Assembly: GCA_012744445.1 (NCBI GenBank)
Contig: JAAYBZ010000029.1
Location: forward strand, 1 to 46,900
Origin: Myxococcales bacterium
Lineage (GTDB): Bacteria; Myxococcota_A; Polyangia; Polyangiales; Houyiibacteriaceae
Direction of reading: 5' to 3'
Length of the DNA stretch: 46,900 bases
A model generated the notes under the pieces. It did no database searches, was not told the origin of the DNA, and saw only the letters and a program-made list of their open reading frames with translations. This document shows positions 4,005 to 12,370 of the stretch, in pieces (position 1 is the first letter of the stretch; the number at the start of each line of letters is the position of its first letter). The translations under genes were made by a program, and so were the position numbers.

Positions 4005-4150
4005 GGCACTCCCCCTTTCTTTCCGATGGACTCTTTGGGTGGGTGCGACGAGGTGGGAAGTCGCCATCGCGGGATGAACGACGCGGGGGCCTTCCGTGTA
4101 CGTCGCGGCGCCCTAGAGGATTCCCATCACGCCCGAGCGTAGAGGAGGGG

Positions 4151-5242
4151 ATGGGCGAGCTCGTCATGCCAGCGTTCCTGGGTCTCCGTGAGGCGACGGT
4201 GGTGAAGTGGCTCGTCTCGCCGGGCGAACGCTTGAAGCCGGGGAGGGTGGCGCTCGTCGTGGAGACGAGCCGGGGGGCGTCGCTCGTGGAGTGCACGAGG
4301 TCGGGCGTGCTGGAGGCGATCCTCGTCGAAGAAGGCGCGACCGTCCCGGTGGGGACCAAGCTGGCCGAGATCCGTGACGAGAAGCGCCCGCGCACGAACG
4401 GCGGCGCGCCATCTGCGCCGGCGCGTACGCTCTCCGCGTCTCCGACGAGCGGACGAGGGGAGACGCTCGCGGTGGAGAGCGCCGCCGCGCCCGCGCGGAC
4501 GCGGTCGGTCTCGCCCGCGCCCGTGAAGAAGCGGGAGGCCAGGTCGCGGGAGAAGCCCGAGCCCGTGCGCGAGGAAGGCGAGGCGTCCATCGAGGCGCCG
4601 GGTTCGCGGCGCGATCCGCTCGGCGAGGACGGTGCGAGCGAGCCGGCGCCGATCGAGCACCCCCGCGCGAAGCCTTCGCGTTTCGAGATCCCGCACTTCC
4701 ACCTCGGACGGACGATCGATCTGGACGCGCTCGTGCGACGCCACGCCGAGGAGGACCCTCGCGTGGCGATCGTGGCGGCCATCGCGCGCGCGCTCCGGGT
4801 CGCCAAGGGCCTCAACGGTCACCTCGTCGACGGCGGCTTCGAGCCGATCGACGAGGTGAACCTCCGCGTCGAGTTGATCCGGGGTGAAGGGCTCGCCGCG
4901 CGGATCCTCGCGCGCGCCGATGCGCTCGCACGTCATGAGCTCGCCGCGAGACTCCGCGATCGGAGCTCGGCGGAGGGCGCGGGCGCGCTCCCCACGGCGA
5001 CGGTCTCGATGCTCGGCGAGCACGGCATCGATATGGTCTTCGGACGGATCCGCCCGCCCGAGGTCGTCGCGATCGGCGTCGGTCGCGTCGCGAGGCGCGT
5101 GTTCCCCGAAGGCGAGTCCGTCGTGATCCACCCCTCCGCGCAGCTCATGGTCACGGCCGATGCGCGCGTCGTCGACGAGCGGATGGCGGCGCGCTTCCTC
5201 GAGCTCGTCGACGTCTTCCTCCACGAAGCGGCGCGCGCCTGA
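4151..5242 (+). CDS. E2 acyltransferase-like pseudoenzyme (lipoyl-type domain plus 2-oxo acid DH catalytic-like domain)
   Basis: This 363-residue protein has the layout of a 2-oxo acid dehydrogenase E2 subunit: an N-terminal lipoyl-type domain (residues 1-75, MGELVMPAFLGLREATVVKW), a long Ala/Pro/Arg-rich linker (about 80-170), and a C-terminal CAT-like acyltransferase domain (about 175-363). Both hallmark residues are missing. The lipoylation site, normally Lys in an ETDKA-type turn, reads ETSRGA with Arg41 (codon 4271-4273). The catalytic HRxxxDG signature reads DARVVDE, with Ala338 in place of His (codon 5162-5164) and Glu in place of Gly. No E1 or E3 gene is adjacent. It could be a structural or regulatory scaffold, or a decaying paralogue; the intact frame and normal codon use favour a maintained gene. 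The ATG at 4151 matches the usual E2 N-terminus. Confidence 0.8.
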   Translation: MGELVMPAFLGLREATVVKWLVSPGERLKPGRVALVVETSRGASLVECTRSGVLEAILVEEGATVPVGTKLAEIRDEKRPRTNGGAPSAPARTLSASPTSGRGETLAVESAAAPARTRSVSPAPVKKREARSREKPEPVREEGEASIEAPGSRRDPLGEDGASEPAPIEHPRAKPSRFEIPHFHLGRTIDLDALVRRHAEEDPRVAIVAAIARALRVAKGLNGHLVDGGFEPIDEVNLRVELIRGEGLAARILARADALARHELAARLRDRSSAEGAGALPTATVSMLGEHGIDMVFGRIRPPEVVAIGVGRVARRVFPEGESVVIHPSAQLMVTADARVVDERMAARFLELVDVFLHEAARA

Positions 5243-5314
5243 GTCGATCGTCGTATGTGCGTCGGGAGGCGCCCCGGCTTGACATCGCCTTCGGGTCGGC
5301 GCATCACGGCGGCT

Positions 5315-5501
5315 GCCTTCAGGTCGCCGCAAGGCGAACGGGCGTGAGGGAGAAATCTCGCGCCCGCTAGGGAAGTCGGTCCAAATCCGACGCGGTTCCC
5401 GCCACGGTAGGCGATCAAAACCCCGGCCATCATGCCACTGGGATCACTCCTGGGAAGGCGGTCGGGACCACGGTCGCGAGCCCGGAGACCTGCCTGAGGG
5501 C
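5315..5501 (+). promoter_or_regulatory. Cobalamin (AdoCbl-type) riboswitch
   Basis: The P1 helix pairs 5315-5323 (GCCTTCAGG) with 5493-5501 (CCTGAGGGC, one G-U). Inside lie the conserved core AGGGAAGTCGGTCCAAATCC, the CCCGCCACGGTAGGCG segment, the CCACTGGGA/CTGGGAAGGCG arm, and a perfect B12 box AGCCCGGAGACCTGCC at 5479-5494. It sits about 90 bases upstream of the TonB-dependent receptor at 5594. It fills most of the 351-base gap after the E2-like gene, and I see no gene in the rest. Confidence 0.96.
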
Positions 5502-5593
5502 ATCGAGCCTGATTCGTCACGGGATATGGCGCGCTCGTTCGAAGAGACTGGTCTCTTTGCGCGGCGCCCTCCTGGTCCTCGGGGTTTGGGGCC

Positions 5594-7606
5594 GTGGTTC
5601 GCAGAAAAGAGATCCTCATTTGCATCGTCGTCGCGATCGTCTCGATCGCCGGCCACTCGCGCGCCGACGACGACGAGCCCGCCTTCCGCGCCAGGGCGGA
5701 GCGCGAGCGCGGCCTCGCCTCGTTGAACGGCGAGGATCCGACGGCGTCGGGGACGGTGGTGCGGCTCGACGACCGGCTCCCCACCGGCGAAGAGCTCCGC
5801 GACGTGCTCCCGGAGATCCCCTCCGTGCGCGTGATGAGCACGGGCGCCGACGGGCAGTACACGGCGCTCGGGCTGCGGGGCACGGAGTTCAACCACACCG
5901 TCGTCCTGCTCGACGACATCCCGCTCTCCGGCCCCGAGACGGGAGGCTTCGACCTCAGCCAGCTCCCCGTGGCGGCCTTCGAGCGCGTGGAGGTCTACCG
6001 CGGGGGCGCGCCCACATTCTTCGGTGTCACCCCTGTGGGTGGTGTGCTCCGGCTGATGCCGCGCATCGGCGGCCCCGACGCCGTGCGCGCCACGCTCGGG
6101 ACGGAGTCCTTCGGCGGCTATCGCGCCGGCCTCGACTCGCGCGCGACCGTGGGCAAGGTGAGCGTCGGCGGGAACGTCGGCCTCGTCGGCGCGAGGAACG
6201 ACTACCTCTACCTCGACGACGGCGGCACGCCGTTCGACACGCGCGACGACGTCGAGCGCCGGCGTCGGAACGCCGACTTCCAGCGCGGGCACGCGATGCT
6301 CACGAGCCGCGTCGATCTCGGGCGTACGGTCATCGACGCGACGGCGCTCTACGTGGGGATGAACCGCGGCGAGCCCGGCGTCGCCTCGCGCCGCACCGAG
6401 CGCTCCAGCACCGATCTCTCGCACCTCTTCGTGATGCTCGGCGTGGATCACCGGGGCACGCTCCGCGGCGCGCGCGAATACCGGGTGCGCGCGGCGCTCG
6501 CGACCGGGACCGAGCGGCGGCGCGTGAGCGACGTCTTCGGCGAGCTCGGCTACGGCCAGGTCGACGCCGACGATCGCACGCGCGTCGTGCATGCGCGCCT
6601 CGCCGGAAGCGTCGACGCGACGCGCTTCCTCGAGCTCGTGGCCACCGCGAGCGCCCGGCTCGATCGCTTCCTCCCGGACGACGTCTTCGCGTCCTACGAG
6701 CAGGTGAAGAGCACGCGCGACACGCTCGGCGCGGGCGTCGAGGCGCGCCTCCACGGCACGCTCGGCCGCGTCCCCGTCGAGCTCCGACCCTCGGTGCGCT
6801 ACGAGTGGACGCGCGGATCGGCTACGGGGCAGGACATCCACTTCGACGAGCCCCGGCGCATCGACAGCGCGAGCCCGAGCTATCGCGTGGGCTTCGGCGC
6901 CGGCCTCGCCGAGGGCGTGAGCCTCGTCGCGAGCGCCTACTCGGGCACGCGCCTCCCGACGCTCCTCGAGCTCTTCGGCAACCGGGCGCGCTTCCGTCCC
7001 AACCCCGACCTCGAGCCCGAGCACGCGAAGGGCGGCGACGTGGGCTTCGTCGTCGCGCGTCCCTTTGAGCACGTCTCGCTCGACCTCGAGGTGCGCGCCT
7101 TCGCGGTCCGCATCGACGACGTCATCGACGTCTTCGTCATCGCGAACCACGGCCAGGTGAAGGCCATCAACCGCGACGTGGCGCGCATCTTCGGCGCGGA
7201 GCTCGGCGGGAGCCTCACGGTATGGCGTCACCTCCGCGCCATCGTCTCGGCGCACGGCCTCCACACCGAGCACGACGCGGACCTCGAGCTCCCGAACCGC
7301 CCGCGCTTCGTCGCCCTCGCGCGCCTCGAAGGGATGAGCGGGCCGCTCGGCCGTCGCGTCTACGACCTCGCCGGCTTCGTGCAGGTGAGCCACCTCGGCC
7401 GCGCCTTCTACGACGCCGCGAACCTCGTGCCCTTCGAGCCGCGCACCACCTTCGACGTAGGCGTTCGCGCCGCACTCCTCGTGCCGGGCCTCTCGGTCTT
7501 CTGCACCGTGCGCGACCTCTTCGACGTCCGCGGGATGGACTTCACCCGCAGCCCGCTCCCCGGCCGACGCTTCTCGGCCGCCATTCAATACCGAAAGGAA
7601 CTGTGA
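5594..7606 (+). CDS. btuB: TonB-dependent outer-membrane receptor, probable cobalamin transporter (BtuB-like)
   Basis: This 670-residue protein has an N-terminal signal peptide (hydrophobic ILICIVVAIVSIAG, cleavage near SRA-DD). A plug domain spans about residues 50-165, with typical plug motifs such as GLRGTEFNHTVVLLDDIPL and ERVEVYRGGAPTFFG. A long beta-barrel with alternating aromatic/charged strands runs to the C-terminus. Length and layout fit a TonB-dependent receptor. The upstream cobalamin riboswitch is the main reason to assign B12 or a related corrinoid as ligand; the barrel alone would not decide this. The start is GTG at 5594 with only a weak GGGG upstream. Its TGA overlaps the ATG of the next lipoprotein by one base, which points to translational coupling. 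Confidence 0.85.
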   Translation: MVRRKEILICIVVAIVSIAGHSRADDDEPAFRARAERERGLASLNGEDPTASGTVVRLDDRLPTGEELRDVLPEIPSVRVMSTGADGQYTALGLRGTEFNHTVVLLDDIPLSGPETGGFDLSQLPVAAFERVEVYRGGAPTFFGVTPVGGVLRLMPRIGGPDAVRATLGTESFGGYRAGLDSRATVGKVSVGGNVGLVGARNDYLYLDDGGTPFDTRDDVERRRRNADFQRGHAMLTSRVDLGRTVIDATALYVGMNRGEPGVASRRTERSSTDLSHLFVMLGVDHRGTLRGAREYRVRAALATGTERRRVSDVFGELGYGQVDADDRTRVVHARLAGSVDATRFLELVATASARLDRFLPDDVFASYEQVKSTRDTLGAGVEARLHGTLGRVPVELRPSVRYEWTRGSATGQDIHFDEPRRIDSASPSYRVGFGAGLAEGVSLVASAYSGTRLPTLLELFGNRARFRPNPDLEPEHAKGGDVGFVVARPFEHVSLDLEVRAFAVRIDDVIDVFVIANHGQVKAINRDVARIFGAELGGSLTVWRHLRAIVSAHGLHTEHDADLELPNRPRFVALARLEGMSGPLGRRVYDLAGFVQVSHLGRAFYDAANLVPFEPRTTFDVGVRAALLVPGLSVFCTVRDLFDVRGMDFTRSPLPGRRFSAAIQYRKEL

Positions 7607-8859
7607 TGCTCAGATCGAAGACCCTCTTCGCTTGGATCGCGCTCTCGCTCGTGGGGTGCGCCGAATCGACCCCGGTGCAGGATGGGGGCTCGCTCCACGC
7701 CTTCGGGAGCGACCTCCCGCGGTTCGCGGTGCTGAGCACCGACGACACCTACACGTCCACGAGCGTCGGCTTCCTCGACGCCGAGGCGAGCCCCATGGTC
7801 GAGAGCTGGATCCACAGCGGGACCGTGGCGCCCAAGCTCGTCGAGACGCTCGGCGGCGACGTGGTCTTCGTGACCGAGGAACGCGGCGACGGCACCTTCA
7901 CCCTCGTCGATCGCTTCGGCACCGACGTGATCACGCGCTTCGACCTCGCGACGGGCGAGGTCATCGGCCAGGTGCGCGTGCGCGAGTCCTTCGCCGTGAA
8001 CCCCTACGACGTCGCCTATACCGACGACGGTCGCGCCTTCCTCGTGCGCTTCGGCAAGAACCCCGATCCCGCGGCGAGCGACCTCGAGGCGGGCAACGAC
8101 ATCGTGGAGCTCGATCCCGACACCGTCTCGCTCGTGGGGCTCGATCCGGAGACGGGCACCATCGCGGGGCGCATCGACCTCTCCCCCATCGACGCGCTCG
8201 TGGGTGACACGATGACCTACGCCTCGCCCGCCTCGGCGCTCGACGTGAGCGGCTACCTCGTGGTGGGCCTCGGTCGCTTCGCGCTCGATTATTCCGCGGC
8301 GGCCGAGGGCGGCTTCGCGATCGTCGAGCCCGCGTCGGGGAACGTCGAGCTCGTCACGATCCCGGGGCTCAAGAGCTGCGAGCAGGTGCACCGCGTGCCG
8401 GGACACCCCGCGCGCTTCGCCGTGCACTGCGGCGGCATGTACGGCTCGGAGGAGCCCGACGCGGGCCTCGTGGTCTTCGAGCTCGACGCGGACGGACAGG
8501 CGACCGAGGTCGCCTCGTACCTCGCCGAGGAGGGCGGCTCACCGCTCGACTCCGTCGTCGTGCTCGACGGCGATCGCTTCTTCGGCATCCGCTTCGGCAC
8601 CTGGGATTCCAGCGCCGATCCCGACGTGGGCTACGTCGTGCGCTTCGACGACGGCGAGGCCGAGGAGGTCCTGCGCGCCTCCGCGGGCGGCGCGACGCTC
8701 GGCACGGCGGCCTTCGATCCCGAGACCGGCATCCTCCTCGTCCCCGACAAGAACGACGGAGTGATCCAGCTCCGAGCGCAGGGCGCGTCGTTCGAAGAGG
8801 TCCGCCGCTTCGCGTTCGGGCGCAGCGGCATGCGCGTCCGCGCCTTCGTCCGCCTCTGA
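7606..8859 (+). CDS. Beta-propeller-like lipoprotein coupled to the B12 receptor
   Basis: This 417-residue lipoprotein has a signal peptide with lipobox SLVGC (Cys18). The mature part shows irregular repeats of 45-60 residues containing Asp-rich turns and alternating strands, for example RFDLATGEVIGQVRV, GLDPETGTIAGRIDL, VVFELDADGQATEVASYL and AAFDPETGILLVPD. This is the pattern of a beta-propeller. No enzymatic motif is visible. It starts inside the receptor's stop codon (TGATG), with GAAAGGAA upstream, so it should be made with the receptor under cobalamin riboswitch control. By analogy, Bacteroides BtuG is a propeller lipoprotein that captures B12 for BtuB; orthology is not shown here. The 3' third overlaps the opposing AI-2E-family gene by 321 bases. 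Confidence 0.8.
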   Translation: MLRSKTLFAWIALSLVGCAESTPVQDGGSLHAFGSDLPRFAVLSTDDTYTSTSVGFLDAEASPMVESWIHSGTVAPKLVETLGGDVVFVTEERGDGTFTLVDRFGTDVITRFDLATGEVIGQVRVRESFAVNPYDVAYTDDGRAFLVRFGKNPDPAASDLEAGNDIVELDPDTVSLVGLDPETGTIAGRIDLSPIDALVGDTMTYASPASALDVSGYLVVGLGRFALDYSAAAEGGFAIVEPASGNVELVTIPGLKSCEQVHRVPGHPARFAVHCGGMYGSEEPDAGLVVFELDADGQATEVASYLAEEGGSPLDSVVVLDGDRFFGIRFGTWDSSADPDVGYVVRFDDGEAEEVLRASAGGATLGTAAFDPETGILLVPDKNDGVIQLRAQGASFEEVRRFAFGRSGMRVRAFVRL

Positions 8860-10891: not shown

Positions 10892-12370
10892 TCAGATGCA
10901 GCCGACGTAGCAGGCCACGTCGAGATCCAGCTCGGTCACGAGCTCGGTCGTATCGAAGTAGGCCGTGCCCTGCGGGTTGAGGATCCGATCGATCGTGAGG
11001 ATCCGCGGGCGACCGTCGTTGCCCTCGAACTCGATGGTCCGCGTGAACTCGGGGTTTTGCCAATCGCCGTTGTCCACGCCGGGGCTGCAGGAGAGCTCGC
11101 GGCGGGGGCATCGCAGTTCCGCATCCGCTTCCGAGACGGCCGCCATGAACTGGAAGCCGGAGACGATCGAGACCGAGCACAGGGTCTTGCACGTGAAACC
11201 GGGAATGTCCGGCGCCAGCGGCGGAACGATCAAGATGTTGTAGTCGGGCTGACGACGGATCGTGCCGTCGAGATCCGTCGCGCTCGCTTGGCCGCAGCTC
11301 GTGGTGGTGCGATGCGGTCCATCCAGCGGAATCGCGATCCGACCCGAGAACGAGTGCCCGACGCTCTCGTCGACGACGGCGTCGATGCACGTCTCGATCT
11401 GCATCGGCGTGACGTCGAGCGAGAAGGTGCCCTCGGATGCGTCTCCCGAGACCGCGATGGTGATCTCCTCGCCTTCGGTGAGCGCGCGCGTGATGATGGC
11501 CCGGCGGTCGTAGCCCACCCAGCTCCTCGTTCCACGTCCGTTGCACTGGAGCGCCTCGCCGCCGCAAGCGGCGCCGGAGGCCACGAGGAGCGTGGGATTG
11601 AAGCTCCCGCCGGTCCTCACCGCTTCGATGGAATAGAAGCCGGTGGACGGGGCCACGTAGCGGTAGGTGCGCGCGCCCATGCCGGGATCGAGGCACGAGG
11701 CGAAGGGGTAGGGATCGCGTCCCTCGTTCGAGTGGGTGATCGGAAGGATCGTCTCGTCGAGGTGGGCGGCGGGGCAGGTCACCCGCTCGATCGCGAGCTC
11801 GAACGCGCCCAATTCACCGGGATGGCCGTCGACGACGACGAGGACCCGCTGCCCTGCGCCGAGGCGCTTCACGATCTCGCCCTTGCGTGTTCCGAGCGGC
11901 GCGGCGTGGCACGCGATCTCCGCGCCTTGGCAGTCGTCGTCGAGGAGGTAGAGGACGGGGTCGAAGCTGCTGCCTTCGGTGTGGAAGCGGAAGTAGTCCG
12001 TGACGGGCGCCGTCCACTCGAAGATCCGCTCGGGCGCGCCGCTCCCACCGCAGCTCCCCGCGCGAGCGCTGCTCCCGAGCGTCTCGCCCGAGGCCTGGGG
12101 CGCGAGACCCTCGAGCGTGCCCTGGACACAGGTGAGATCCACGGGGGATTCCGCGTCAGGGACGTCTGCGTCGCCGTGGCTCGCGTCGTCGGGCTCGTCG
12201 GAGCCGTCGACCTCCGCGTCCTGGCCCCCGTCATGAGCACCGTTCGCGAACGAGAACTTGCCGTAGTCGTCGAAGAAGACGCAGCTCGAGAGGACGTGAC
12301 CGAGGATCAGACAGGCTAGGACACGGTGCGACGTCGGCGCGAAATTACGGAGAGGCCAAAAGGGCGTCAA
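10892..12370 (-). CDS. Large Cys-rich surface lipoprotein
   Basis: This 492-residue protein has a lipoprotein signal peptide ending VLSSC (Cys30), then an Asp/Ala/Glu-rich flexible stretch (about 42-78). Two to three beta-rich domains follow, containing [31 protein letters not shown] and [21 protein letters not shown]. These resemble pre-peptidase C-terminal (PPC)-like beta domains in which an aromatic pattern is followed by a short Asp-rich loop. Many cysteines probably form disulfides. No enzymatic motif was found. The start codon is TTG at 12370; no better ATG or GTG precedes the hydrophobic core. The gene is convergent with the TPR gene and divergent from leuS. Function unknown, probably an outer-membrane surface protein. 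Confidence 0.7.

Follow-up and report, generated by a model that had tools for sequence, protein, structure and literature searches.

A 46,900-nucleotide stretch of contig JAAYBZ010000029.1 (assembly GCA_012744445.1 of a Myxococcales bacterium), hereafter the window, carries a cobalamin riboswitch followed on the same strand by the genes of a BtuB-like TonB-dependent receptor and of a lipoprotein with a predicted seven-bladed propeller fold. We consider it likely that these elements constitute a B12-repressed outer-membrane corrinoid-capture operon, in which the propeller faces outward as a lid or hand-over partner of the receptor. The operon is best filed as BtuG-like corrinoid capture, not as a proven BtuG system. 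Lipoprotein-assisted capture of B12 has been studied mainly as an adaptation to the gut. The initial annotation of this region had proposed a corrinoid-capture pair at the cell surface; the fold of the lipoprotein, its match to BtuG2 and the conserved gene context support this proposal, and B12 binding and the surface location are the parts of it that we infer.

The lipoprotein is predicted to fold as a seven-bladed propeller

The lipoprotein gene (7606..8859, + strand) encodes 417 amino acids, and its product was assigned as a BtuG-like propeller from an AlphaFold2 model, a Foldseek match to BtuG2 and a profile match to BtuG. The model, for which the family alignment was the input, is all-beta, with a mean predicted local distance difference test (pLDDT) score of 94.7 and a predicted template modelling score of 0.90. 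According to our own reading of its DSSP strand listing, 28 strands form seven four-stranded blades, closed by a C-terminal strand (residues 410-416). When 350,542 PDB chains were searched with Foldseek, the first match was BtuG2 with adenosylcobalamin (8bmz, E 2.6e-9); the fifth, the cyanocobalamin (CNCbl) complex of BtuG2 (8ptf), had template modelling (TM) scores of 0.61/0.73, the highest among the matches listed, and the structure of XusB (9hqk, E 5.5e-8) was also near the top. Since numerous other propellers score well too, the top rank of BtuG2 is no proof on its own. The initial annotation had described this lipoprotein as propeller-like, and an all-beta, seven-bladed model that matches BtuG2 best agrees with that description rather than with a non-propeller fold.

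Searches with the sequence did not reveal this resemblance, because the sequence alone is too diverged. No family match to the lipoprotein was obtained in Pfam (including the YncE family, PF21783), NCBIfam or PHROGs, no PDB sequence matched it, a phmmer search of the PDB returned no BtuG even at E 10, the family profile did not find BtuG in the PDB either, and scanning the genome contigs with the single sequence detected no relatives. Homologues are present in 139 of the 318 genomes of the host's class, almost always as one copy per genome, and full-length homologues were also detected in other classes of the phylum with a profile built from 70 sequences.

For a comparison of profiles, BtuG sequences were collected from Bacteroides genomes via their riboswitches, their identity was checked against PDB chains, and more were added from 118 Bacteroidetes genomes; BamB, lactonase and YncE propellers were included as controls. 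The profile of the lipoprotein family matched that of BtuG with a probability of 99.0% (P 2.5e-18, 317 columns), in an alignment that spans the lipobox through blade 7 in a single blade register. The probability was at most 0.2% for column-shuffled BtuG and 5.8 to 9.6% for BamB. For the YncE profile, which was built from the host's order, it was 96.8% (P 2.4e-10), and several registers were nearly equal. The YncE/YVTN propellers (PF21783) have the fold superfamily in common with the lipoprotein family but align to it in an ambiguous register; to our knowledge, they have no link to B12 uptake.

The propeller gene lies near cobalamin riboswitches and receptors in related genomes

To evaluate the gene context, we compared 101 loci, of which one is that of the window, 80 belong to the host's class and 20 to further classes of its phylum. 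The gene directly upstream of the propeller encodes a receptor of the same family in 73 loci, a cobalamin riboswitch is found upstream in 76, and both are present in 61. The initial annotation had suggested looking for a conserved order of riboswitch, receptor and lipoprotein; the homologues are indeed mostly close to these partners, at least one of which lies upstream in 88 of the loci. Among the loci with at least 2.8 kb of upstream sequence, 78 of 85 have the receptor and/or the riboswitch, and in the other classes the receptor is adjacent in 18 of 20 loci and the riboswitch present in 15 of 20. Given that there are only a few cobalamin riboswitches per genome, their frequency next to the propeller is higher than chance would produce. 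The arrangements vary, and include overlapping genes, a riboswitch directly before the lipoprotein gene, and a receptor gene that is downstream or divergent. That the association persists while the gene order varies makes it less likely that inheritance of a single operon is the whole explanation.

Individual loci showed further arrangements of these riboswitches. In loci L047 and L113 (and L046), separate cobalamin riboswitches precede the receptor and the propeller. Divergent cobalamin riboswitches occur at L053:3119-3320, one before the propeller and the other before apparent genes of corrinoid assembly, namely open reading frames that by eye are CobQ-, CobO- and CobT-like. At L061:5460-5589, a riboswitch that is divergent to the propeller operon is followed by the gene of another small lipoprotein, of about 219 amino acids.

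The BtuB-like receptor and the organization of the operon

The receptor gene (5594..7606, + strand) has a GTG start and encodes 670 amino acids with the Pfam domains Plug (1.9e-14) and TonB_dep_Rec_b-barrel (3.1e-21). Its top NCBIfam model is TIGR01779 (TonB-B12, E 2.2e-24), which is also the best-scoring equivalog; however, the score of 85.9 bits is below the equivalog cut-off of 599.7 bits, and for this reason we name the receptor BtuB-like only. The best PDB match is Escherichia coli BtuB (E 8e-16), followed by the next receptor at E 3e-9. These domains and matches are in line with the identification of a TonB-dependent, BtuB-like receptor in the initial annotation. The receptor resembles BtuB (TIGR01779) in its Plug and barrel domains and in the cobalamin riboswitch, and E. 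coli BtuB accounts for all of its top PDB matches; its gene, unlike E. coli btuB, overlaps a lipoprotein gene.

Upstream of the receptor, Rfam cmscan identified a cobalamin riboswitch aptamer (RF00174; 5304..5511, + strand; 100 bits, E 5.9e-24) that is complete (full model, 1-189), exceeds the gathering score of 31.5 and includes the B12 box AGCCCGGAGACCTGCC, read directly at 5479..5494 (+). The riboswitch with its perfect B12 box was already recognized in the initial annotation, but the aptamer starts at 5304 and not at 5315 as given there. The leader between the aptamer and the receptor start (5512..5593, +) contains an 8-bp hairpin, GAAGAGACTGGTCTCTTTG; its RNA folding z-score of 0.04 is no better than that of shuffled sequences, and a terminator pattern that could act as the expression platform was sought in this leader and not found. 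The stop codon of the receptor gene (TGA, 7604-7606) and the ATG of the lipoprotein gene (7606) form a TGATG overlap (7604..7608, +). Direct reading of this junction bears out the stop-start overlap reported previously, and the junction is consistent with translational coupling of the lipoprotein to the receptor; overlapping stop-start junctions between both genes were also found repeatedly in the homologous loci. The gene located 3' of the lipoprotein gene encodes an AI-2E family transporter on the opposite strand, and therefore the visible transcription unit comprises the riboswitch, the receptor and the lipoprotein, all on the + strand.

The host probably imports corrinoids

The content of the host genome was checked family by family. 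It encodes a B12-dependent MetH (1683 bits). The TP_methylase domain was matched by no more than three proteins, which on our own reading of the sequences are a CobA-HemD-type fusion, RsmI and a radical-SAM protein, the last being a false match. No dedicated corrin-ring methyltransferase was detected in this 94%-complete assembly. The host thus seems incapable of synthesizing the corrin ring; with MetH present and these methyltransferases not found, an importer is probably needed, and the host probably imports corrinoids. A B12 capture system may then be essential for this bacterium.

A conserved face of the propeller aligns with the corrin-gripping face of BtuG2

The lipoprotein has a lipobox, LVGC (7648..7659, + strand), whose Cys18 is aligned in 67 of the 70 homologues. 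None of these 67 family members has a lysine at position +2 after the cysteine. In Myxococcus xanthus, a +2 lysine is present in eight of 12 inner-membrane lipoproteins (PMC3222651), and its lack fits sorting of the family to the outer membrane.

Loop faces were assigned by propeller topology. The face formed by the D-A/B-C loops is more conserved than the opposite loops (0.395 vs 0.297, p 0.003). In BtuG2, the loop Asn54-Thr64 and a blade-5 loop grip the corrin like pliers (PMC10404256). The first of them aligns with a conserved loop, DDTYTS (residues 46-51; 7741..7758, +), in which D46, Y49 and S51 rank at percentiles 97, 96 and 90 of conservation in the family. The aligned position of the second comes after C275, which is invariant, as are D135, R148, G163 and D165. 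Together with the nearly invariant C258, C275 forms a conserved pair (69/70 and 70/70; 8377..8430, +) that represents a putative disulfide, in a loop aligned to the blade-5 loop of BtuG2. Trp194 of BtuG2 corresponds to a conserved aromatic residue (F or Y) at position 229. Both families are acidic, with a mean net charge of −24 for the lipoprotein family and −17 for BtuG. From these alignments, the putative binding face is shared with BtuG2, with residues that are partly different.

A second lipoprotein family with a possible link to BtuH

The host genome contains another locus (contig C147) with two divergent cobalamin riboswitches. Behind one of them, a 233-amino-acid lipoprotein is encoded (C147:11636-12334, + strand; L034:7637-8335). 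Among 193 genomes of the class, 80 have matches to its family. In 26 of the 101 loci, a member is encoded upstream of the propeller, and 18 of these 26 also have an adjacent receptor. Of the PDB entries, the family profile best matched the BtuH-like C-terminal portion of BtuG1 (8blw), with a weak E value of 0.023, and in hhalign the probability of a match to BtuH was 85.9% with the family profile and 3% with the single sequence. A structural model, moderately confident with a pLDDT of 85, also matched 8blw first in Foldseek (E 2.8e-5, TM 0.40), followed by discoidin-like domains. Compared with BtuH (PMC8941943) and the BtuG1 fusion, the family resembles 8blw weakly, and the host copy stands alone, without Ig/PKD domains. 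The profile and model matches make a link of this family to BtuH suggestive; these genomes would then have two unrelated families of lipoproteins that point to the B12 system of Bacteroides.

On the other side of the C147 locus (− strand, L034:3021-6698), the divergent riboswitch precedes the genes of a DUF7151 lipoprotein, a secreted protein of about 440 amino acids and a lipoprotein with a DUF7151-like N-terminus.

Evaluation of the proposed function

The proposed system is similar to BtuG and BtuBG of Bacteroides (BT1954; PMC6143338, PMC10404256) in that a lipoprotein with a seven-bladed propeller is encoded next to btuB under a cobalamin riboswitch, and in that the gripping loop maps to a conserved loop. 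It differs in that the window family has no BLAST- or Pfam-level similarity to BtuG (BLASTP being the published criterion), has other pocket residues and the Cys258-Cys275 pair, and belongs to another phylum. Some observations weigh against a function like that of BtuG. The upper-ligand pocket residues Trp272 and Tyr335 of BtuG2 correspond to Ser312 and Gly385, and the corrin-contact residues of BtuG2 are not kept as a set in the family. In a crude test, the acidity per residue of the D-A/B-C face did not exceed that of the opposite face. Neither partner is found upstream in 13 of the 101 loci, of which six have less than 2.4 kb of upstream sequence and one (L040) has the receptor downstream. 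Finally, BtuG matches YncE (P 3.4e-26) more closely than it matches the lipoprotein family. The family is nearer to BtuG than to YncE, yet BtuG is nearer to YncE, so that membership of the family in BtuG is not established. On the profile evidence, YncE is a serious rival comparison that lowers the claim of BtuG orthology.

This last relationship, together with the absence of two of the aromatic pocket residues, would be explained if the propeller had been recruited independently from the YncE superfamily and its likeness to BtuG reflected functional convergence instead of shared descent as a B12 binder. We give this explanation a substantial chance, somewhat short of even, given that the match to BtuG is stronger than that to YncE and has one clear register, and that BtuG1/BtuH of Bacteroides is likewise indicated by the second lipoprotein family. 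Where the initial annotation left the choice between an independent and a distantly related system, the latter seems to fit the profile evidence better. The pair might also import something other than corrinoids, for example a siderophore or a different metal chelate, with the riboswitch as a mere regulatory cross-link. XusB of Bacteroides fragilis is a propeller lipoprotein for xenosiderophores with its own TonB-dependent transporter (PMC13142918). It shares the propeller lipoprotein and the TonB-dependent transporter with the window pair but binds iron-siderophores, and its high rank in Foldseek, as well as the score of our receptor under the BtuB cut-off, are compatible with such a role. 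The cobalamin riboswitch upstream of most propeller genes and the fact that BtuB is the best match of the receptor in both PDB and NCBIfam make this very improbable, and we know of no XusB located behind cobalamin riboswitches.

The side of the membrane is a separate matter. The propeller could be a periplasmic or inner-leaflet outer-membrane lipoprotein that works as a BtuF-like B12 relay or as a receptor scaffold, and not in capture from outside. In agreement with this, the Bacteroidetes-type surface export signal (MKWD-like) is not present after Cys18, where the window protein reads C-A-E-S-T; as this signal is specific to Bacteroidetes, its absence is expected here, and the surface-export signals of myxobacteria are poorly known (PMC3222651). 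We regard this placement as unlikely, since the nearest structure is an extracellular lid, BtuG2, and the most conserved loops match its corrin-gripping loop.

Under the preferred reading of a corrinoid-capture operon, the riboswitch would permit expression when corrinoids are scarce and B12 would repress it. The propeller, as an outer-membrane lipoprotein that most likely faces outward, would bind corrinoids on its D-A/B-C loop face and act as a lid or hand-over partner of the co-translated BtuB-like transporter, with which it may form a complex like that of BtuG with BtuB in Bacteroides.

BtuG was published as exclusive to Bacteroidetes (PMC6143338), and DUF4465 B12-binding proteins occur in several phyla, including Myxococcota (PMC13398666). 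A myxobacterial propeller paired with BtuB was not described in the literature that we searched, which did not include subscription papers and preprints. So far described for Bacteroidetes only, surface capture of B12 is probably not restricted to them. For the broader idea that myxobacteria have a complete, phylum-wide counterpart of B12 scavenging in Bacteroides (BtuB, a BtuG-like lid, a BtuH-like companion and riboswitches), shared by ancient descent or transfer and with a re-tooled corrin pocket, the chances seem to us evenly balanced. If a riboswitch-receptor-propeller operon is kept across myxobacteria, B12 uptake with a lid would be a general strategy, and a function could be assigned to two protein families outside Pfam coverage. 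The propeller family would also offer a test of how corrin is bound by a propeller that uses different residues.

Other features of the window

Directly upstream of the cobalamin riboswitch (4043-5242, + strand) is the gene of a stand-alone 2-oxoacid dehydrogenase acyltransferase-like protein with a lipoyl domain. A thiamine pyrophosphate (TPP) riboswitch (2858-2952, − strand) precedes thiC (1102-2868, − strand), and therefore two vitamin riboswitches lie less than 2.5 kb apart in the window. On the other side of the operon, positions 10892-12370 (− strand) encode a 492-amino-acid protein without a Pfam match that looks like a lipoprotein or a secreted protein.

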